Source: Cavenderia fasciculata (lineage: Eukaryota > Evosea > Eumycetozoa > Acytosteliales > Cavenderiaceae). Taken from it: a DNA stretch of 64,000 bases. Below the pieces are notes generated by a model, which did no database searches, had not been told where the DNA came from, and worked only from the letters and a program-made list of their open reading frames with translations. Position numbers and translations under genes: made by a program. Positions 38,628-60,280 of the stretch are shown piece by piece. Within the stretch, counting starts at the first letter, position 1. Each line of letters starts with the position of its first letter. Location: NCBI RefSeq assembly GCF_000203815.1, contig NW_004457736.1, forward strand, positions 620,001-684,000. Reading direction: 5' to 3'.

Positions 38628-40512
38628 ATGTTTAAGCAATCTTTAGTTTTATTTGCTGTTGTTGCAGCTGTTGCATATGCTGTCCCAAGCATCCCAAATC
38701 CATCTCAAGTAAGAACACAAACCAAAACATACGACTGACCGACCGAAACAAATACTGACATTCATTCTTTTGTTACATTTGTTATTAATTTATTTATAGT
38801 ATTATATGAGTGGAACTTTTAGCATTCCATACTTTAACATTGTTGAACCAATCGAATTAATTTATGATGGTGTCAACAACCGTCAATACATTTCATACTA
38901 CAATGGAATGGATATTACTCTCAACCTTTTCGAACAAAATATTTCATACTCTATTGGTAAGAAGTTTCAACTCAAAAGATCTTGACAGACTGTCTTGTCT
39001 CTTCACAATCTTTCTAAACAAAAAAAAGATAGAGAGAAAAAGAAGAGAGAGATAGAACAATTCAGTTTCAATCTTGTGAAATTTAACACACCAACACACA
39101 CACAATTACTAACCAACCCACCACTTTTCTTTCTTTTTTTCTATTTTCTATTTTCTTTAGGCCCACAAGTTAATACTTTAATTTGTCAAACCATCCCAGG
39201 TAACGGTTCATTGATCACTGTTTTACCACCAATCCCATCTGAATGGTCATTCAACGGAACCAGCACTGTCAACGGTATCGATGTCTTTTCCTACACCCAA
39301 AAGGTTGTCAACTATGGCAAGGCTGCCTATTACACCTTTTACGTCAACTCTGATGGTACCCCAGTCCAATTCTACTTGAACGGTGTCGACTTTATCTTTG
39401 ACTCACATCCCGATGTCTACATTCTCGACTTTACCACCTGGACTACCGACATTTCCCAATACGGATCGATCTGGGAGGTCCCAGCCCTCTGCAACAACGC
39501 CGAGGAAGCCACCCACGCCCAATTCGACCAATTCGAAGAGATCTTTGGTCACATTGACTCTTCCAACAAAAAGATGGACTCCTCCTTCGACCAATTCAAG
39601 AAGCAATTTGGCAAGACCTACGAAAACACCCTCGAACACAACACCCGTTTCGCCACCTACAAGCAAATGCTCCACCGTGTTGCCACCCACAACGCCCACA
39701 ACTCTGAATCCACCTACAAGCTCGCCATGAACCACTTTGGTGATATGTCTGACGAAGAGTTCCGTAAGTTCATCATCCCACACGTCGATCGTGACGAAAA
39801 CAACGGTGCCTCTGAAGTCCACGACAATGAAGATGTCTCTGCTCTCCCAGCCTCCCTCGATTGGAGAACCTCTGGTTGTGTCACCCCAGTCAAGGATCAA
39901 GGTGTATGCGGTTCATGCTGGACATTCGGTTCTTTGGCCTCACTCGAGACTGTCGCCTGTTTGAAGCACAACAAGGACTTGATCTCACTCTCTGAACAAG
40001 AGTTGGTCGACTGTGCCTACGTTGGTCAATCGATGGGTTGCAACGGTGGTTTCGCCTCCAACGCCTACCAATACATCATGAATGCCGGAGGTATTGCCAC
40101 CGAGTCTGACTACCCATACTTGATGCAAAACGCTTACTGCAAGGCCTCAACTGTCCAAAACTCTGGCGTCCGTGTCCAATCCTACGTCAACGTTACCGCC
40201 TTTTCTGAAGCTGCCCTCCAAAATGCCGTCGCTACCGTCGGTGTTGTTGCTGTTGCCATCGATGCCTCTGCCCCAGATTTCCGTTACTACTCTTCCGGTG
40301 TCTACTACTCTACCGTCTGTCAAAGCGGTTTGGACTACCTTGATCACGAAGTCGCCGTCCTCGGTTACGGAACTGATAACGGTCAACAATACTGGATCGT
40401 CAAGAACTCCTGGAGCACATATTATGGAAATGAAGGAATTGTATGGATGGCCATGAACCGTGACAACAACTGTGGTATCGCTTCCCAAGCCACTTACCCA
40501 ATTGCTGTTTAA
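38628..40512 (+). CDS. cfaD: Secreted papain-fold protein, counting-factor-associated protein D-like
   Basis: Three exons (38628-38708, 38800-38956, 39161-40512) give 529 aa. A signal peptide ([18 protein letters not shown]) is followed by a ~170-residue domain of beta character ([20 protein letters not shown]...). Next is an I29-type propeptide ([14 protein letters not shown] ... [12 protein letters not shown]) and a complete C1A peptidase unit. Catalytic residues are present: Cys332 in [11 protein letters not shown], His475 in [10 protein letters not shown], Asn495 in KNSWS. Length and architecture match Dictyostelium CfaD, a secreted cathepsin-like protein that with AprA slows proliferation. 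The third positions are strongly C-biased, implying high expression. A plain cysteine protease with an N-terminal extension is the alternative. Confidence 0.82.
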
Positions 40513-49183: not shown

Positions 49184-52100
49184 TTAACCTGAAGAAGGAG
49201 TTTTAGAATTGGTCGAACTTGAAGCGGAACCTAATTTCTTCATTCCAATGACTTGTTTAATACTCGACAAAGTTCCTTGTTTGTAAGCATACAAGAGTGC
49301 AAAGATTGGTGCAATTTCGGTGATTAAAAGACCAACAAATGTGAATACGATATTGCTTGGTTCAGCAGCTACCAACACCAATACAAACACACAATGAAGC
49401 ATAAATCCAATCGAACAGACCAATGTGACCATCGACACCTTCTTTTGTTGTTCACCTCTCTTTTCTTCACTCAAAGCAACCTTTCTATTTCGAACCATAA
49501 AGAAGAGTGTCAAACCAAGGTATGCAAATGCTGAACCGATAATCAATGATATAACAGCTTGTACAACTGCATAAACAATTGAAACGACTCTTTGTGGAGT
49601 TGTTGTACTTGGTTCTAATGGAATACGACCACCACAATCACCATTGTTATCTTCTTTTTGTGTAAAGTGGAATACCAATACAATGATGATAAACAACACG
49701 TATAGAACACCATTGATCGTTGTAATCATCAATCTAATTCGTTTAAAGAATGAACCAGTGTATGCCTTTACAAGCATATACCAAATGACAATGATAATCG
49801 TAAAACATGTGAAATAGATAAACGTAGGTAATACAACCAAAATATAATCTCCAACTGAACTAATCATTTTAGTTGGTAATATAAAGAAATAAATTGCTCT
49901 AACTATTAAAATAAATAAGTAAAATATGATTAATAGACTATACATTATTATTATTAATATTTTTTAAATTAATTTACATACTCAACATAAATATAGTGAT
50001 TGAAATGGTTAGAGCATGAATTAATCTTGGTTCGTCCAACTTTTTGTAAATCTTGAATGCTGAAACAATCAATTGTAATGCACCCCATGCTGCATTGAAA
50101 AGGAATATAGCTGCCAATGTGTATAAGAGTCCAGTTGCTTCCTTGTCAAATAATTCCTTTTCTAAATCTTGATAATCTTCAACACGAGAAACAAGGAAAT
50201 ATGTGGCTGTTTCAGCAATTGATGGTATTTCTGAACAATAATAACTTTCTTGGGTGATTGGGTCGGTTGTTTGGAAAATATTGACATTCAAAATAACCAT
50301 TGATTGAGATGTATGGTGTGGATTGGACGATGTTTCATCTTCTTGAATTTCAACAGCAATATCGAGAATTGGATAGGATGAAGAATGTTCAAGATCGACC
50401 GACTCTGACGAATAGCAAATTGTGAATAGATCGACACCTGGTGAATGTAATTTGACACCATCAGTCAACAATACACCAATAGCAGCATCATTGTCATTAT
50501 AGATTGCAAAACTATCAACCTTTTTGTAAGATACAAAGTTGGAAGACAATGATTCGGTTTGTGATGACTTGAATAATAATTTGGAGAGTTGAGAGACAAC
50601 TACATTGGTACAAGCTTGTGGTACAGAAGAATTAGAGAACATAATTTTTCCATAAGAGAATTTAAATTCAGATTCTTCTTTTGAACATGGATAACTTTGA
50701 CCAAGAACCAAAGAACTACTTGTGAAACATTGTGCTCCCCCAGGTCCACCACACGAGCAAGAAATTGAATGGAGACTGTCTTCAATACGTTCCATACGAC
50801 ACAGTGAAGAGGATCTTAGCAGATCGGATATATGGGTTTGGTAAGCTTCATCGAGGACATTTGAGAATAACATATTGTCAAGTACTGGTTTTAGGAAACC
50901 CAACTGTTGGAATTGTGGTTTCATCCAAGTAGGTTTGATTGGAATACCTGGAATCCAGTGGTTGGGTTTCCAAGTAAACATATTTGTCCATTCGTGATAA
51001 CTCTGGTCGACGCGACATGCTTCACAAGCAGTTTGATTCATTTCATTGAATCTAAAGTTGTTTGGGAGGTTATAAGGTGATTGATCGATGATTTTACAAC
51101 CCATCTGTGCAAGACATTCATCTTTACCAATTGTTGCAGCCCACCATTTATATTCAGGACCGAGTGCCAAACAAGCTTGTTCAGTGAGGACTTGTGGAGT
51201 AGAGTTGAAACATCCTTTTGGAGAATCATGCTCGTTTGGATAGTTACAAGATGGTTGCCACATGATTCCAGAATAATAATCGTGTCCGCGTACACATTTG
51301 CCATAAAGAACTGGGTAGTTGGGGGTGTTGATAGGATTGAAATAGAATTCATCCGAACACGCTCCATAATTCTCACACTCTTGCTTGTTTTGACAATTTA
51401 TGGGAGCCACAGAGCAAATACTCATCGATCCAAAGTTTGCATAACACTCGGATACTGGTTTGGTTGAGCAGTTGGTCCACACTGCATTGGTAATGAGTTG
51501 ACATGTTTGGATTGCCGTTACATCTGGCCTGGTACACAATGAATAGGAAGCAGACCACACTCCACTTTGTGCCGAGCAGTCGGTTTGGGTTTCAACTAAT
51601 GGCAGAACACATCCTGTGTATACACCAGAACACTGGTATCCACAGTATGAAGAACAAATTCCAATACTTTTACACTCCTCGTCGGTATATCCAATTCCGT
51701 ATTGTCCAGAGACGGCACATATAGTGTCAGTTGCATTACACTGTGCTTCATCAAGTTGTCTAATACTGTAGCAAACAGAGTTGTTGTTTCTGCAATACCC
51801 ACAGAAATTTGGTCGAGCCAAGCAATCTGTGTGACAGGTGCTGTTATGAGTGTTATGTTGACATGATTGATCAGAGCACACACCAATCTCGGGACATAGG
51901 TCGACAAAATCGGTTTCTACAAAACTGAATCCCGTTTCCAGTTGGTAACAAACATCAGAGACTGTTAAACAACTGGCATCATAACACCTGGTGGCTGGGT
52001 AACAAACATCAGAGTTTGTTATCCATTTGTAGTATTTTCGATAAAGTAGGCCACCTGTACTACTAGTGCAATCATTATCAACAAAATTGCTAAACAATTC

Positions 52101-54495
52101 TTGATTAAATTGAGGAGTATTGATTTCATAAGCAATATTATATCTTGATTGAAGATAATATAATACTTTTGGACTTAATCCATTCATTACACACTAAAAT
52201 GATCGAGGATGATTAGAAGTTAGGATTAATATTTCTTTTTTTCATATTTCTTTTTTCTTTTTTGTTTGTTTTTTGACATACATTAAAAAATTGATTATCT
52301 TGTATTTCTGGTGGTACTTGACATTGTCTTGTATAATAATCACATATATATGGTGCACACATTGTGTCATTATCACAATCGATCATGTCATAGGCAGTTC
52401 GACAATTTCTTAGTGTTGTGTAAATGTCAAGTTGGTAATCTGAGAAACTTGAATAGGTCAATTCACATTCACTTGCCATGGTTGATGTTGCATTGAAATA
52501 ATCTTGAAGAATACTGGCTGTGCAGTCTGGTGATGAACATTGATCTTCCACTAGACTTTTTTGTACACCCGAATAAGTGGTTTGTGGTATCTCTTGTAAA
52601 TGTGGAATACAACATTGGAAATAATTTTGTTCTGGACTACAGCAAGGATCAGTGTAGTATCGATTATCCAACGATGAATATTGACATTTAGTTGCATTTG
52701 CAGTGATATTGACAGTGTTGGTTTCCAAAAGACTATCTGCTAATGCCTGACATCCAACCCAGGTGTCTTCAGCCGTCAATATATCAATTGCAAATCGAAT
52801 ATTTGATACTTCTTGGAATCCAGATGCTGTGAATAGTTGACTTTCAAGTTGATCTAATTGAATCTTGATTGAATCCAATTCAGAGTATTCACATTCTGGT
52901 GTTGTGACATTCAAGTCAAGTGCCTCGTTCAACAATGGGTTACCGTCACTGTCGACCAAGTAACCGAGTAGTACGAGTTGTGCCGATAATAAAGATTGTA
53001 ATGGCAGGTAGACTTGAGACCCCTTTTTGATGATAATAGCTGACTGGAAGCTATTTGGTTTGGGAGGGTTGTCAAATGCGAATTGGTCATAGTCGATGTT
53101 TTCGAAAAAGCTAATGTGCTTGTCTTCCTCTTTGAGTGATCTGGGGATTGGCCAAAGTGGGTTTTGGGATTGTCGAGGAAAGTTGAAAAAGTAAAAGGAT
53201 GATATGAAAATCTCTCCCTTTATCTTTAGAGCAGAGGTTCCATAAAATAAATAGGAAGCTCCCAGTGGAAAGTTTTGAGTGATTGGACGGAGGATGGGTA
53301 CAGTGTGAGTTGTAAATGTGCACGTATAGTTGGCCTTAAAGAAATTCAAAATACCAACAAAGATTGTTGAGCTTGTTGTCATACTAAGGTATGCATCACC
53401 GCCTAAATTTTAAATAATAATTGATTGATTGATTAATATAAATAAAAAAAAATATTATTTGTTTCATATATGACACTTACCAAAATTGTAAACAGACCAA
53501 CCATAAGCTGAAGCAGAGGGGTAAAAGACATTTGGAGATGCAAAAACTTGAATGTTTTCATTTAAAAGAGGGCATCTCATAGCCACCTTGGTCGTACGAT
53601 TAATGGGCATATAGTAGTACTGTTGGACAGCATTGCTTTGAATGGATCCTCCATTGGGAAGACAAGTATGGTTCATGGATGTATTGGGACATGGTGGCTG
53701 GGTCACTTGTTTTGGTACCTCTGCCGAGTAGGCAATAAATGAAAATGCAACCTTGTCAGATTCAGGTTTGATTGAAACGAAATAAGTATTGTTGGTCCAC
53801 ACACCACGACTTAATCCAATATCACTTGGACATAGACCAAGATGTAAAGCCTAAAAATAAAAAATAAAAATAATAACAATTAATATGTATAATTATTTAA
53901 TATAATTAATATATATGTGTTGATTAATACATACATTGCTATAAACATTACGATTTGCGTTGGTTGCATTGTCGTTTACATATAATCTGATATTACCAAG
54001 TTTCTGAGAAGCGTAGAACCGAAGTCCTTGACAAATCGATGCATTGGCCTTGAGACGTAAATAGATAATGGATCCAGTCGATTCGAAATAGTATTCCTTG
54101 CCAATTGTAACAGTGGTCCAGTTGTAACCAGGGTTGCATTCAGTGGTGATAGTTCCATTTTGAAGTATTTGAGTGAGTGGACATGGAGGACAAGAGCTGC
54201 CCGATGGTGATTTTGGGCAATCTAGAGGATCACTATAATCACATGTGCAATCGATGCCACCTGGTTGAACGACATTTGGACATGTGAAGTTGGGACACAC
54301 AACATCCATGTGTGAAAATATTGGTCTATCAGTCTCTACATTAATATATCCAATATCTAGGTCTGTACCCAATACATTCAATTTCTTATATGTCAATGTA
54401 CTAGATGTGATATTGAATGAATCAACAACAATCAAACAATATCCACTCACTAGCAGTATGAACAGCAGTGATATCAGTGTAGACAGTCGTTTCAT
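49184..54495 (-). CDS. Large Cys-rich ectodomain fused to seven-helix THH1/TOM1/TOM3-like domain (tandem copy 1)
   Basis: Five exons (53935-54495, 53481-53850, 52282-53402, 49982-52193, 49184-49902) give 1660 aa with all frames closed. A signal peptide (LSTLISLLFILLVSGYCLIV) opens a ~1370-residue ectodomain rich in Cys and N-glycosylation sites, with repeated Cys spacing such as CSDQSC, CQNKQECENYGACSDE and CSCGGPGGAQC. The last ~270 residues have seven hydrophobic helices: LYTLAAIFLFNAAWG, ALTISITIFMLIRAIYFFIL, YILVVLPTFIYFTCFT, and four more. LPTFIYFTCFTIIIVIW with the arrangement of helices resembles the plant THH1/TOM1/TOM3 domain. The likely topology is a receptor-like surface protein. 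The ligand is unknown, and no GPCR signature motif is evident. Confidence 0.8.
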
Positions 54496-54961
54496 TTCCT
54501 ATATGCTATGAATATTAAAGACGAGAAGGCTATTAGATCTTTTAATCCCAATGTAATAATATCGATATCTTACAGTTAACACTTACACATTACACGTCTC
54601 TGTTCTTATAAATATGTGAAACATAACGATGTGGAGAGAGCATTCTATTGATGAACAATGTCATCAAAGACATCGAGCGAAAAACAAAAGATAGATATTT
54701 ATATCTTTCTTCTTCTTTGAAACCGAGACACTTTCCGACTTCTAAAGTCACCCCAAATATCTTATCTATCTCTGTCATAGAATATCTCTTTTGTTATTGC
54801 CGACATGTGGTCTATACAAATAATAATAAAGTAACTTATGATATTAATATTATGATCGCACTGACCACAAGAATGAACATCACATTTTATTTTTTTTAAT
54901 ATTTTTTTTATCTTACAGATACCAAGAGAGTTTTAATAAGTTATTATATTTATTTATTTCT

Positions 54962-55032
<71 letters not shown>

Positions 55033-55033
55033 T
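54496..55033. other. Spacer between the tandem receptor-like genes
   Basis: About 540 bp holding the promoter of copy 1 and the 3' end of copy 2. An open stretch at 54590-54778 has no support. A long ATTT repeat abuts the copy 2 stop codon. Confidence 0.6.
54950..55033. repeat. (ATTT)n microsatellite
   Basis: About twenty TTTA units end directly at the copy 2 stop codon. Confidence 0.95.
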
Positions 55034-58000
55034 TCAAGAAGAAGGAGTTTTAGAATTTGTTGAACTTGAAGCGGAACCTAATTTCTTCATTCCAATGACT
55101 TGTTTAATACTTGACAAAGTTCCTTGTTTGTAGGCATACAAGAGTGCAAAGATTGGTGCAATTTCGGTGATTAAAAGACCAACAAATGTGAATACGATAT
55201 TGCTTGGTTCAGCAGCTACCAACACCAATACAAACACACAATGAAGCATAAATCCAATCGAACAGACCAATGTGACCATCGACACCTTCTTTTGTTGTTC
55301 ACCTCTCTTTTCTTCACTCAAAGCAACCTTTCTATTTCGAACCATAAAGAAGAGTGTCAAACCAAGGTATGCAAATGCTGAACCGATAATCAATGATATA
55401 ACAGCTTGTACAACTGCATAAACAATTGAAACGACTCTTTGTGGAGTTGTTGTACTTGGTTCTAATGGAATACGACCACCACAATCACCATTGTTATCTT
55501 CTTTTTGTGTAAAGTGGAATACCAATACAATGATGATAAACAACACGTATAGAACACCATTGATCGTTGTAATCATCAATCTAATTCGTTTAAAGAATGA
55601 ACCAGTGTATGCCTTTACAAGCATATACCAAATGACAATGATAATCGTAAAACATGTGAAATAGATAAACGTAGGTAATACAACCAAAATATAATCTCCA
55701 ACTGAACTAATCATTTTAGTTGGTAATATAAAGAAATAAATTGCTCTAACTAAATAATAATAATTATTGTTAATATTATTTAAATTATTAATATTAATTT
55801 TTTTTTTTTTTTACATACTCAACATAAATATAGTGATTGAAATGGTTAGAGCATGAATCAGTCTTGGTTCGTCCAACTTTTTGTAAATCTTGAATGCTGA
55901 AACAATCAATTGTAATGCACCCCATGCTGCATTGAAAATGAATATAGCTGCCAATGTGTATAAGAGTCCAGTTGCTTCTTTGTCAAATAATTCCTTTTCT
56001 AAATCTTGATAATCTTCAACACGAGAAACAAGGAAATATGTGGCTGTTTCGGCAATTGATGGTATCTCTGAGCAATAGTAGCTTTCTTTTGTGACTTGGT
56101 CGGTTGTTTGGAAAATATCGACATTCAATACTACCATTATTTTTTCTGGATCCATTTCAGCAACAATATCGAGAATTGGATAGGATGAAGAATGTTCGAG
56201 ACTGATCGATTGTGATGAATAGCAAATTGTGAATAGATCGACACCTGGAGATTGTAATTTGACACCATCAGTCAACAATACACCAATAGCAGCATCATTG
56301 TCATTATAGATTGCAAAACTATCAACCTTTTTGTACGATACAAAGCTGGAAGACAATGATTCGGTTTGTGATGACTTGAACAATAATTTGGAGAGTTGAG
56401 AGACAACTACATTGGTACAAGCTTGTGGTACAGAAGAATTAGAGAACATAATTTTTCCATAAGAGAATTTAAATTCAGATTCTTCTTTTGAACATGGATA
56501 ACTTTGACCAAGAACCAAAGAACTACTTGTGAAACATTGTGCTCCCCCAGGTCCACCACACGAGCAAGAAATTGAATGGAGACTGTCTTCAATACGTTCC
56601 AATCTACAGAGTGAAGAGGATCTTAGCAGATCGGATATATGGGTTTGGTAAGCTTCATCGAGGACATTTGAGAATAACCTATTATCGAGTAAGGGTTTGA
56701 CAATACCCAAATTGAAGAATTGTGGTTTCATCCAAGTAGGTTTGATTGGAATACCTGGGATCCAGCGGTTGCGTTCCCAAGTAAACATATTTGTCCATTC
56801 ATGATAACTCTTGTCAACATGACAAGCTTCACAAGCAGTTTGATTCATTTCATTGAATCTAAAGTTGTTTGGGAGGTTAAAAGATGATTGATCGATGATC
56901 TTGCATCCCATCTGTGCAAGACATTCATCTTTACCAACTGTTGCAGCCCACCATTTATATTCAGGACCGAGTGCCAAACAATCCTGTTTGGTGAATACTT
57001 GTGGAGTAGAGTTGAAACATCCTTTTGGCGAATCATTCTCGGTTTGAAAGCTACAAGATGGCACTTGACCAATTCCAGCATAATTACCATGTCCACGTAC
57101 ACATTTACCTAATAGAACTGGGTAGTCTGGGGTGTTTACAGGATTGAAATAGTATTCGTCTGAGCACGCTCCAAAATTCTCACACTCTTGCTTGGTTTGG
57201 CAACTAACCTCAGACACATAGCAAATACTTCCCGTTCCAAAGGTTGTGTGACACTCGGATACTGGTTTGGTTGAACAGTTGATCCATACTGAATTGGGAA
57301 TGAGTTGGCATGTTTGGATTGTAGCATCCTCTTTAACGCATACGGAAATAGATGGTGCCCATGATCCACTTTGTGCAAAGCATTCAGTTTGGGTTTTGAT
57401 CAATGGCAGAACGCATCCTGTATAGCCACCAGAGCACTTGTATCCACAGTCTGAAGAGCAAATGCCTTTATTTTCACATTCCTCTTCAGATATTCCAGTT
57501 ATGTATTGACTGCCAAAGGTGCACACACTGGAACTAGAGTTCAGACATTCTGATTGATCCAACACTTGAAAATTGATATTTGTAAAATTGTTTCTTGAAT
57601 AGCCACAGAAATTAGGACGTTTTAGGCAATCTACTTGACAAGTGCTGTTTAAAGATGTTTGTTGGCATGATTCGTCTGAGCATATTCCAGCTATGGGGCA
57701 AATCCCTACATTGGAAGCTCTAAAGAACCGGTATCCCGATTCAAACTGGAAACAAACATCAGAGACTGTTAAACAACTGGCATCCTTGCACTTTGGAGAT
57801 GGATAACAAAATTTTTCTGGATTAGATAGTTGATAATAATACCATTTTCTTAAAATTGAGCCTCTTGAAGAGGTGGCACAATCAGGAACCTGGAAATTGT
57901 TAAACAATTCTAGATTAAATTGAGGAGTATTGATTTCATAGGCAATATTATATCTTGATTGAAGATAATATAATACTTTTGGACTTAATCCATTCATTAC

Positions 58001-60280
58001 ACACTAAAATGATCGAGGATGATTATTAATATTTTTCTTTTTTGCTTCATTTTTGTTTTTTGACATACATTAAAAAATTGATTATCTTGTATTTCTGGTG
58101 GTATAAGACATTCTCTTGCAAAATAATCACAAAGATATGGTGCACACATTGTGTCATTGTCACAATCGATCATGTCATAGGCAGTCTTACAATTTCTTAG
58201 TGTTGTGTAAATGTCAAGTTGGTAATCTGAGAAACTTGAATATGTCAATTCACATTCACTTGCCATGGTTGATGTTGCATTGAAATAATCTTGAAGAATA
58301 CTGGCTGTGCAGTCTGGTGATGAACATTGATCTTCCACTAGACTTTTTTGTACACCCGAATAAGTGGTTTGTGGTATCTCTTGTAAATGTGGAATACAAC
58401 ACTGGTAAAAACTTTGTTCTGGACTACAACAAGGATCAGTGTAGTACGAGGTGTCAAAAGGTGAAAATTGACATTTAGTTGCATTTGCAGTGATATTGAC
58501 AGTGTTGGTTTCCAAAAGACTATCTGCCAATGCCTGACACCCAACCCATGTATCTTCAGCCGTCAATATATCAATTGCAAATCGAATATTTGATACTTCT
58601 TGGAATCCAGACGCTGTGAATAGTTGACTTTCGAGTTGGTCCAACTGACTCTTGATTGAATCCAATTCAGAGTATTCACATTGAGGAGTGGTCACATTGA
58701 GTGAAACTTTATCCAAATAAAGAGGATTGCCGTCTATATCAACAAAATCTCCCCGGAGAGCAAGTTGTGCCGATAATAAAGAATCCAGTGGGATAAATGC
58801 ACGTGCACCCATTTTCAAGATAACAGCAGCTTGGAAGTTATTTGGTTTGGGAGGGTTGTCACTTGCGAATTGGTCATAGTCGATATCTTGGAAAAAATCC
58901 ATGTGTGAGTCTTGATCGAGGATTAAATTTGGAACTGGCCAAAGAGGGTTTTGGGATTGACGAGGAAAGTTGAAAAAGATTTCATGAGTGCGAAGGGTCA
59001 CATTCTCTGTCTTGAGGGCTGTTGAATCGAAGAATAAATAGGAAGCTCCAAGTGGATAGTTTTGAGTGATTGGACGGAGGATGGGTACAGTGTGAGTTGT
59101 AAATGTACATGAATAATCAAACTCAAAGTAATTTCTAATTGTGACAAACAGGTACTTTTCTTGAAAAATGTTAATCGTAAGATATGAATCACCACCTTTT
59201 TAAAAAAAATAAATAATAATAAGTCAATATTTTAATCAAATCAATTCATCCAATTTCAGTTCTAAAAATATACATACCATTGTTGTATTGGTACCAATCA
59301 TTCAGACTTTGAGAAGGGAAATGAGTACTTGTGGAGAGATAAAGTTGTGGGGCTCCAGGAGAAATATTAGGACATCTGATGGAGAGCTTGCTTGGACCAG
59401 TCAATGGCATATAATAATACAATAGAGCAGCATTGTTTTCGATGATTCCTCCGTTTGAAATACAAGTCTGATTTGATGTGTTTTGACAAGGTGGTTGGGT
59501 CACTTGTTTTGGTACCTCTGCCGAGTAGGCTATAAATGAAAATGCAACCTTTTCGGATTTTGGTGTGACTTGAATGAAATATGTATTGTTGGTCCAAAAA
59601 TCATACCCAAAATAATCACCAGGGCAAAAACCTAGATGTAATAACTTTTAAAAAATAATAATGAATTAAAGTTAGATTATAATATATTGTTTAGAATTAT
59701 TGTTTTAAAATTATCATACACCTCTATTTGCACCCCGATAAAAACCCTTTTCTTGTATTCCTGAATAGACAGAGATTTCGCCATATTTTTGAGAAGTGTA
59801 GAAACGAAGTCCTTGACAAATCGATGCATTGGCTTTGAGACGTAAATAGACAATGGATCCAGTCGATTCGAAATAGTATTCCTTGCCAATTGTAACGGTG
59901 GTCCAGTTGTAACCAGGGTTGCATTCAGTGGCGATAGTTCCATTTAGAAGTGTTTGAGTGAGTGGACATGGAGGACAAGAGCTTCCTGATGGTGATTTTG
60001 GGCAATCTAGAGGATCACTATAATCACATGTGCAATCGATGCCACCTGGTTGAACGACATTTGGACATGTGAAGTTGGGACACACAACATCCATGTGTGA
60101 AAATATTGGTCTATCAGTCTCTACATTAATATATCCAATATCTAGGTCTGTACACAATAAATTCAATTTCTTGAGTGTCAATGTACTAGATGTATAATTG
60201 AATGAATCAACAACAATCAAACAATATCCACTCACTAGTATCACTAGCAGTGATATCAACAATTGATATTGTTGAAACAT
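55034..60280 (-). CDS. Large Cys-rich ectodomain fused to seven-helix THH1/TOM1/TOM3-like domain (tandem copy 2)
   Basis: It has the same five-exon plan and intron phases as copy 1 (59720-60280, 59278-59644, 58069-59195, 55819-58003, 55034-55749), giving 1651 aa. Exon 1 is 561 bp in both. The membrane exon encodes the same protein as copy 1 apart from the last residue, and the block from CSCGGPGG to the first helix is nearly the same. By contrast the start, the whole of exon 2, the first part of exon 3 and the first half of exon 4 differ strongly while keeping the cysteines. An acidic/Ser insert near the end of the copy 1 ectodomain (SNPHHTSQS) is missing here. All frames are open, so both copies look functional. 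Confidence 0.8.

Follow-up and report, generated by a model that had tools for sequence, protein, structure and literature searches.

We analysed a 64,000-nucleotide stretch of the Cavenderia fasciculata genome (contig NW_004457736.1, positions 620,001 to 684,000, hereafter the window; G+C content about 34%), in which two neighbouring genes, A and B, encode large cysteine-rich proteins with matches to the THH1/TOM1/TOM3 membrane domain family. From their sequences, the two genes are probably old tandem duplicates that have been patched by repeated ectopic gene conversion. An earlier note on this DNA had described two adjacent genes with an equal five-exon plan and phases, mosaic similarity made of named identical and diverged blocks, and cysteines kept across the diverged blocks, and had proposed gene conversion plus local diversification, after the logic of the dictyostelid tgrB1/tgrC1 self-recognition genes. 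Gene models, spliced alignment, residue-level block comparison and permutation tests bore out the gene structure, the cysteines and the mosaic, and gene conversion was supported by silent divergence that was strongly heterogeneous along the pair and flat in paralog comparisons.

Two neighbouring genes with a mosaic of near-identical and diverged blocks

Genes A and B lie head-to-tail, both on the minus strand. Gene A (49184..54495; exons 54495-53935, 53850-53481, 53402-52282, 52193-49982 and 49902-49184, of 561, 370, 1121, 2212 and 719 nt) encodes 1,660 amino acids including 80 cysteines, and gene B (55034..60280; exons 60280-59720, 59644-59278, 59195-58069, 58003-55819 and 55749-55034, of 561, 367, 1127, 2185 and 716 nt) encodes 1,651 amino acids including 79 cysteines. 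Both reading frames are without internal stop, intron phases are 0, 1, 0, 1 in both, and the exons of B were recovered identically by spliced alignment with A as the query. Cysteine columns are common to the two proteins in 78 of 81 cases, three being unshared. By eye, an (ATTT)n simple repeat of about 75 bases (54960-55033) immediately follows the stop codon of gene B.

At the residue level (numbering of A), near-identical blocks (41-161, 561-717, 1159-1285 and 1346-1660) alternate with diverged ones (162-213, 241-487 and 718-920), the latter confined to the predicted ectodomain, and segment borders are sharp, from near-identical to about 50% diverged. Read in the direction of transcription on the minus strand, homogenised sequence in exon 1 (A 54005..54453, B 59790-60238; 18 of 449 bases differ) is followed by diverged zone 1, which spans the end of exon 1, exon 2 and the first part of exon 3 (A 52896..54004, B 58683-59789). 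Small near-identical islands within this zone, an addition to what had been described before, include one (A 53246..53319, B 59033-59106) that differs at 2 of 74 bases, with flanks differing by 47% and 63%. Two homogenised segments come next: the exon 3 core (A 52680..52895, B 58467-58682; 10/216 differ), then the exon 3 end with intron 3 and the start of exon 4 (A 52084..52659, B 57894-58446; 21/488 coding bases differ). Diverged zone 2, in the cysteine-rich first half of exon 4 (A 51516..52083, B 57320-57893), includes one segment of intermediate divergence and one identical stretch of 34 bases. Mid exon 4 is of intermediate divergence (A 50872..51512, B 56679-57319; 94 of 641 bases differ), and homogenisation resumes in late exon 4 (A 50410..50871, B 56217-56678; 9/462) and in the ectodomain end plus membrane domain (A 49190..50228, B 55037-56065), where 10 of 960 aligned coding bases differ and a diverged intron 4 (A 49903..49981, 79 nt; B 55750-55818, 69 nt) lies between near-identical exons. 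Identity between A and B sets in some 40 bases past the start codon and ends near the stop codon.

Silent divergence is strongly heterogeneous along the pair

Over the whole coding sequence, synonymous divergence (dS) between A and B was 0.33 and nonsynonymous divergence (dN) 0.13. By block, dS was 0.30 (residues 1-40), 0.06 (41-161), 0.68 (162-213), 0.31 (214-240), 0.94 (241-487), 0.34 (488-560), 0.10 (561-690), 0.07 (691-717), 1.44 (718-920), 0.36 (921-1120), 0.17 (1121-1158), 0.07 (1159-1285), 0.31 (1286-1345), 0.06 (1346-1427) and 0.03 (1428-1660), that is, 0.03-0.10 in homogenised versus 0.68-1.44 in diverged blocks. In paralog controls (A-C14b, B-C14b, A-C14a and A-C5a, with family members from elsewhere in the genome), dS was at least 0.61 in all blocks, often saturated, and at least 1.25 in exon 5.

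Counting as scorable those degenerate codons that encode the same amino acid in both copies, 163 of 1,276 differed silently between A and B. The longest run without a silent difference spanned 210 scorable codons (A residues 1409-1626), against a permutation maximum of 105 (n = 10,000), and two further runs, of 79 and 71 codons, were significant as well (p = 0.002 and p = 0.006). Variance between 30-codon windows reached 0.0176, against a permutation maximum of 0.0085 (n = 5,000), and no significant excess appeared in any of the eight comparisons other than A-B and C14a-C14b (p = 0.08-0.52). The pair therefore runs from zero silent divergence over 210 codons to near saturation, the opposite of uniform divergence.

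Pure constraint on the protein, without conversion, would draw on the membrane and late exon 4 blocks, whose conservation across the family is among the highest; those same blocks, however, are near-identical at silent sites between A and B and strongly diverged between paralogs. In trees of the diverged blocks, A and B were sisters (support 100/100) separated by about 1.0 change per column in summed branch length, a figure that fell to about 0.011 in the homogenised 3' blocks (3' tree of nine of the ten members, without C13). The corresponding sum for C14a-C14b, a rough gauge of ordinary constraint, went from about 1.77 to about 0.54, so that the shrinkage between block sets was about 90-fold for A-B versus about 3-fold for the C14 pair (whose join support, 93/96 and 91/90, is under the star level of the tree tool). 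Conservation without conversion was rejected by block dS with paralog controls and by the permutation tests, and its probability is practically negligible.

The same 3' region is more weakly homogenised in a second tandem pair

C14a and C14b, themselves in tandem, were the other comparison with raised window variance (0 of 2,000 permutations reached the observed value). Silent differences affected 77 of 243 scorable codons in their 3' region versus 278 of 538 elsewhere (Fisher p = 1.8e-7), for a region (1159-1285 and 1428 onward) selected after its block dS values, 0.98 and 0.84, were known. Their longest silent-identical run, 13 codons, was not significant (p = 0.135). Homogenisation thus affects the same 3' region in both tandem pairs, and is weaker in the C14 pair.

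Within the A-B pair, silent differences were clustered in diverged zone 1 (window variance p = 0.0002; longest runs p = 0.044 and 0.094) and showed no clustering in zone 2 and in residues 921-1158 (p = 0.26 and 0.31). This clustering, together with the sharp borders, is what would speak for a tandem duplication of recent date in which blocks were exchanged afterwards for sequence of a diverged paralog or allele, or altered by targeted hypermutation. We consider such a history very improbable, since the flanks, introns 1 and 2 and largely intron 4 are diverged too, which swapping of coding blocks would not lead one to expect, and the family offers no sampled donor: in the two large diverged blocks A is nearer to B (0.56 and 0.59) than to the other eight members (at most 0.33 and 0.43). 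Nor was there any sign of import of the variable blocks from another family member, B being the closest to A in 12 of 12 blocks (nine members compared with A) and the two being sisters in the pooled diverged blocks.

Introns and flanks point to an old duplication

Compared with shuffled sequence, no clear similarity between A and B was found in the 300 bases upstream (z-score -1.0), the 150 bases downstream (z = 1.9), or introns 1 and 2 (z = 0.8 and -0.6). For intron 3, homology was clear (z = 7.6), with matches at 53 of 55 aligned bases besides indels that included one of 10 and one of 13 bases; intron 4 was only weakly similar (z = 2.7), matching at 48 of 60 aligned bases, again with indels. 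Because the flanks are without clear similarity beyond shuffles, the duplication that produced A and B is old, as is the non-coding DNA around the genes, against which the near-identical blocks stand out as exceptions.

No positive selection is seen in the diverged blocks

In residues 162-213, 241-487 and 718-920, dN was 0.59, 0.35 and 0.35 for dS of 0.68, 0.94 and 1.44, giving a pooled dN/dS of 0.35 (bootstrap 0.26-0.45); dS near saturation makes this a weak test of low power. Within that power, positive selection on the diverged blocks was not seen, dN being below dS in each of them. The shortest block, 162-213, had a dN/dS of 0.88 (0.42-1.84), which is not distinguishable from 1. Local diversification, the second half of the process proposed earlier, therefore found no support, given the pooled ratio and given that introns 1 and 2, largely intron 4, and the flanks had escaped homogenisation as well.

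The same results bear on whether A and B form a recognition pair, in which conversion would even out the signalling part while selection maintained differences between A and B in ectodomain blocks, as well as their variability between strains, in the manner of allorecognition or immune receptor pairs. The restriction of diverged blocks to the predicted ectodomain, the kept cysteines, the ratio in block 162-213 and an ectodomain mosaic that family constraint explains weakly are all in its favour. Yet dN falls short of dS in blocks 241-487 and 718-920 and in the diverged blocks when pooled, the introns and flanks, which such selection would not be expected to touch, escaped homogenisation too, neither protein has a TIG match, and the data are those of one genome; we regard this reading as unlikely.

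A TOM1-type membrane domain behind a large cysteine-rich ectodomain

In a Pfam scan of the whole protein at expectation values (E) up to 1, the only match of A was to the THH1/TOM1/TOM3 membrane domain PF06454 (E = 1.6e-7, 31.5 bits, curated cut-off 25; residues 1372-1600, encoded at 49367..50132, minus strand, by the end of exon 4 and exon 5 with intron 4 inside), and exon 5 alone matched at E = 2.1e-9. The same scan of B returned PF06454 (E = 1.8e-7, 31.3 bits, above the cut-off of 25; residues 1365-1592) and otherwise only a sub-cut-off match to the PPC domain. Both proteins were above the PF06454 cut-off in the genome-wide profile search too. Hydropathy peaks of A between residues 1372 and 1624, some of them merged, are compatible with seven helices, about five of the predicted membrane helices being held by exon 5. 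Ahead of this part lies a cysteine-rich ectodomain of about 1,370 residues, which in A contains 23 N-glycosylation sequons and begins with a signal-peptide-like hydropathy peak. A and B thus look like THH1/TOM1/TOM3-type proteins with a seven-helix membrane part.

The fold of the ectodomain was approached in several ways. A bacterial PPC-type domain (PF04151) was looked for in diverged zone 1, all matches being below the cut-off of 25.9: a 252-residue piece of B from this zone scored 17.4 bits (E = 0.0085) and whole B 13.5 bits (E = 0.14), and no match was found in whole A or in the piece of C14b. A profile of eight members gave weak matches to structure chains (T-cell-receptor chains at E = 0.007-0.035, the metalloprotease chain 2luw at E = 0.079), and a beta-sandwich fold in zone 1 would be a guess. 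A PDB search with the membrane domain returned no match. AlphaFold2 modelling of exon 4 from a two-row alignment reached a mean predicted local distance difference test score of 29.

At least ten loci of the genome searched (30,995,898 bases in 21 contigs) match both ectodomain and membrane part: A, B, the tandem pair C14a and C14b, C5a, C3a, C2b, C5b, C3b and C13. A further match, C11, was confined to the membrane part and was excluded from all comparisons, and other PF06454 matches occur in the genome, for example on C5 near 631 kb, C10 and C18. Members other than A and B were modelled by automatic spliced alignment, with doubtful exons in C2b, C5b, C3b and C13 and a doubtful end exon in C14a and C3a; in these automatic models C3a is nearly single-exon. 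In the C13 member (C13:288500-298000), ectodomain and membrane pieces match opposite strands, with a stretch of about 1.33 kb (about 293271-294604) inverted inside the gene. This inversion is either real or an assembly error; none of the 13 inverted repeats in 291999-295999 links its two borders, and C13 was used for exons 1-3 and the start of exon 4 only. Elsewhere in the window, an open frame at 38986-40512 resembles, by eye, a papain-type cysteine protease with an extended N-terminal part.

A model of repeated conversion and the points against it

The ancestor would have been a large cell-surface protein, made of a signal peptide, a cysteine-rich ectodomain of about 1,370 residues with sequons and a THH1/TOM1/TOM3-type membrane domain, whose gene was tandemly duplicated long ago. 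Introns 1 and 2, most of intron 4, the flanks, exon 2 with the first part of exon 3, and the first half of exon 4 would represent the unconverted background, near silent saturation. Repeated ectopic conversion between the neighbours, in tracts of about 70 bases to several hundred, would have reset exon 1, the exon 3 core with intron 3, late exon 4 and the membrane domain. We infer that conversion is the process at work and that it persisted mainly where similarity and protein constraint were high. The gene-wide correlation of A-B silent divergence with family constraint (rho = 0.60, 42 windows) fits with conversion persisting where the protein is constrained; the control A-C14b gave a rho of 0.14, not significant, constraint being gauged from five pairs among C14a, C14b, C5a and C3a, so that gauge and control have C14b in common.

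Several observations weigh against this reading or against the receptor role attached to it. Outside the 3' region, silent divergence and constraint correlated with a rho of 0.36 (p = 0.052; 29 windows, built from rounded values of the 42-window set), and of the 25 residues of A in the island at A 53246-53319, 24 are shared with B and just 7-13 with each of five other members. Because this correlation is weak and the island is unconserved in the family, constraint cannot account for all of the mosaic, which seems to require short tracts of conversion into diverged sequence as well, and selection may possibly keep the remaining blocks different. At intron 4, 12 of 60 aligned bases differ versus a single silent difference among 125 scorable codons around it (residues 1369-1500; p = 5.8e-6). 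Since the intron is diverged and its flanking exons are near-identical, a single DNA tract across it is unlikely, and the pattern calls for separate tracts, rapid turnover of the intron or a spliced intermediate. All comparisons were made within one genome and do not fix the direction or date of conversion. Finally, plant TOM1 did not bind the G-alpha subunit in one test (PMC2530877, PMC11195488), and for this reason G-protein coupling of A and B is not to be assumed.

The spliced intermediate deserves separate mention. Evening of the coding parts via an mRNA copy (complementary DNA), with intron 4 and the flanks untouched, agrees with identity limits that fall close to the start and stop codons and skip intron 4, and with the lack of intron 4 in the automatic models of C14b, C3a and C2b and of intron 3 in those of C14a, C5a, C3a and C2b. 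Intron 3, however, was homogenised along with its exons, and on reasoning only, such a tract would tend to remove the intron of the recipient. We hold this route to be improbable to much the same degree as block replacement. Under DNA-level conversion between old duplicates, tracts may instead have stopped at the diverged intron 4, or that intron may turn over fast.

The conversion process itself is already known. What this locus adds is a worked case: conversion between duplicates is legible at the level of single exons and can be set against paralog controls and another tandem pair of the same genome. A caution comes with it, in that diverged paralog blocks should not be taken as diversifying selection when introns and flanks are equally old. 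In addition, the locus points to a social-amoeba family, with ten loci or more, of large surface proteins with a TOM1-type membrane domain. A and B would be putative sensors with one signalling module in common and different outer domains, for which bacteria, glycans or other cells are candidate ligands; if they do sense bacteria or other cells, they would make up a receptor class of their own, serving feeding or multicellular development. A TOM1-type domain behind a giant cysteine-rich ectodomain was not found described in those parts of the open-licence literature on TOM1/THH1 in Dictyostelium or Amoebozoa that we consulted, and may be described elsewhere. It would be a bold and rather improbable step further to see in the family an undescribed dictyostelid class of contact receptors, a second system beside Tgr, with TOM1-type modules and giant variable ectodomains, in which conversion shares the signalling module and selection keeps recognition blocks apart and variable between strains.

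Comparison with known systems

With their membrane domains over the PF06454 cut-off, A and B are closest in kind to THH1/TOM1/TOM3 proteins, and GPR137, a putative relative of TOM1, and the RSF class are possible kin. The THH1/TOM1/TOM3 family is treated among G-protein-coupled receptor (GPCR)-like proteins (PMC11195488, PMC2530877). RSF is reported as a new GPCR class that amoebozoans have too; its structural link to THH1/TOM1/TOM3 has weak support, and the sample behind it includes the Cavenderia fasciculata proteome (PMC12716839). According to the same work, GPR137 has no domain outside its seven helices and RSF candidates have no additional domains (PMC12716839); A and B differ from both in placing a cysteine-rich ectodomain before the membrane domain. 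Adhesion GPCRs likewise have a big extracellular part ahead of a seven-helix domain, but neither GAIN nor 7tm_2 had a match in A or B (Pfam, E up to 1). In the main text of a social-amoeba GPCR survey, family 2 receptors are without additional N-terminal or GAIN domains, and the words TOM1 and THH1 are missing (PMC10445921).

Tgr proteins span the membrane once, and they are extremely polymorphic between strains, which sets compatibility. They carry TIG/IPT and E-set domains, and the tgrB/tgrC genes form divergent pairs with one common promoter, located in a recombination hotspot, without strong signatures of selection, according to PMC12324515. A and B resemble tgrB1/tgrC1, as portrayed there, only as adjacent membrane-protein genes with recombination within genes (PMC12324515), and differ from them in lacking a TIG match, in their TOM1-type membrane domain, in being head-to-tail on the same strand instead of a divergent pair with a common promoter, and in their dissimilar 300 bases of upstream DNA. 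No TIG domain was found in whole A or B (Pfam, E up to 1), nor in exon 4 of B or exons 3-5 of A with the limit relaxed to E = 10, and in the genome search none fell in A or B among at least 150 matches listed (150 of 449 candidates scored). Membership of A and B in the Tgr family was rejected on domain content and gene order, and the tgrB1/tgrC1 logic suggested earlier did not hold for the features tested, the TIG domain and the divergent pair, though the two proteins may conceivably act as recognition receptors all the same. Clusters of TIG matches at C9:289000-320000, C13:380000-442000, C17:737000-757500 and C7:736000-750200 are possibly Tgr-like or other TIG-protein loci of Cavenderia fasciculata.

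A further likeness is to converting tandem paralogs, of which tandem arrays of Trypanosoma brucei are reportedly an example and from which A and B differ in no essential point known to us. To our knowledge, a mosaic as fine-grained as this one, with a diverged intron between identical exons, seems unusual. Low silent divergence in patches between neighbours is typical of converting tandem pairs, and A and B bear this hallmark, their silent divergence being heterogeneous within the pair and flat against the outgroup paralogs.

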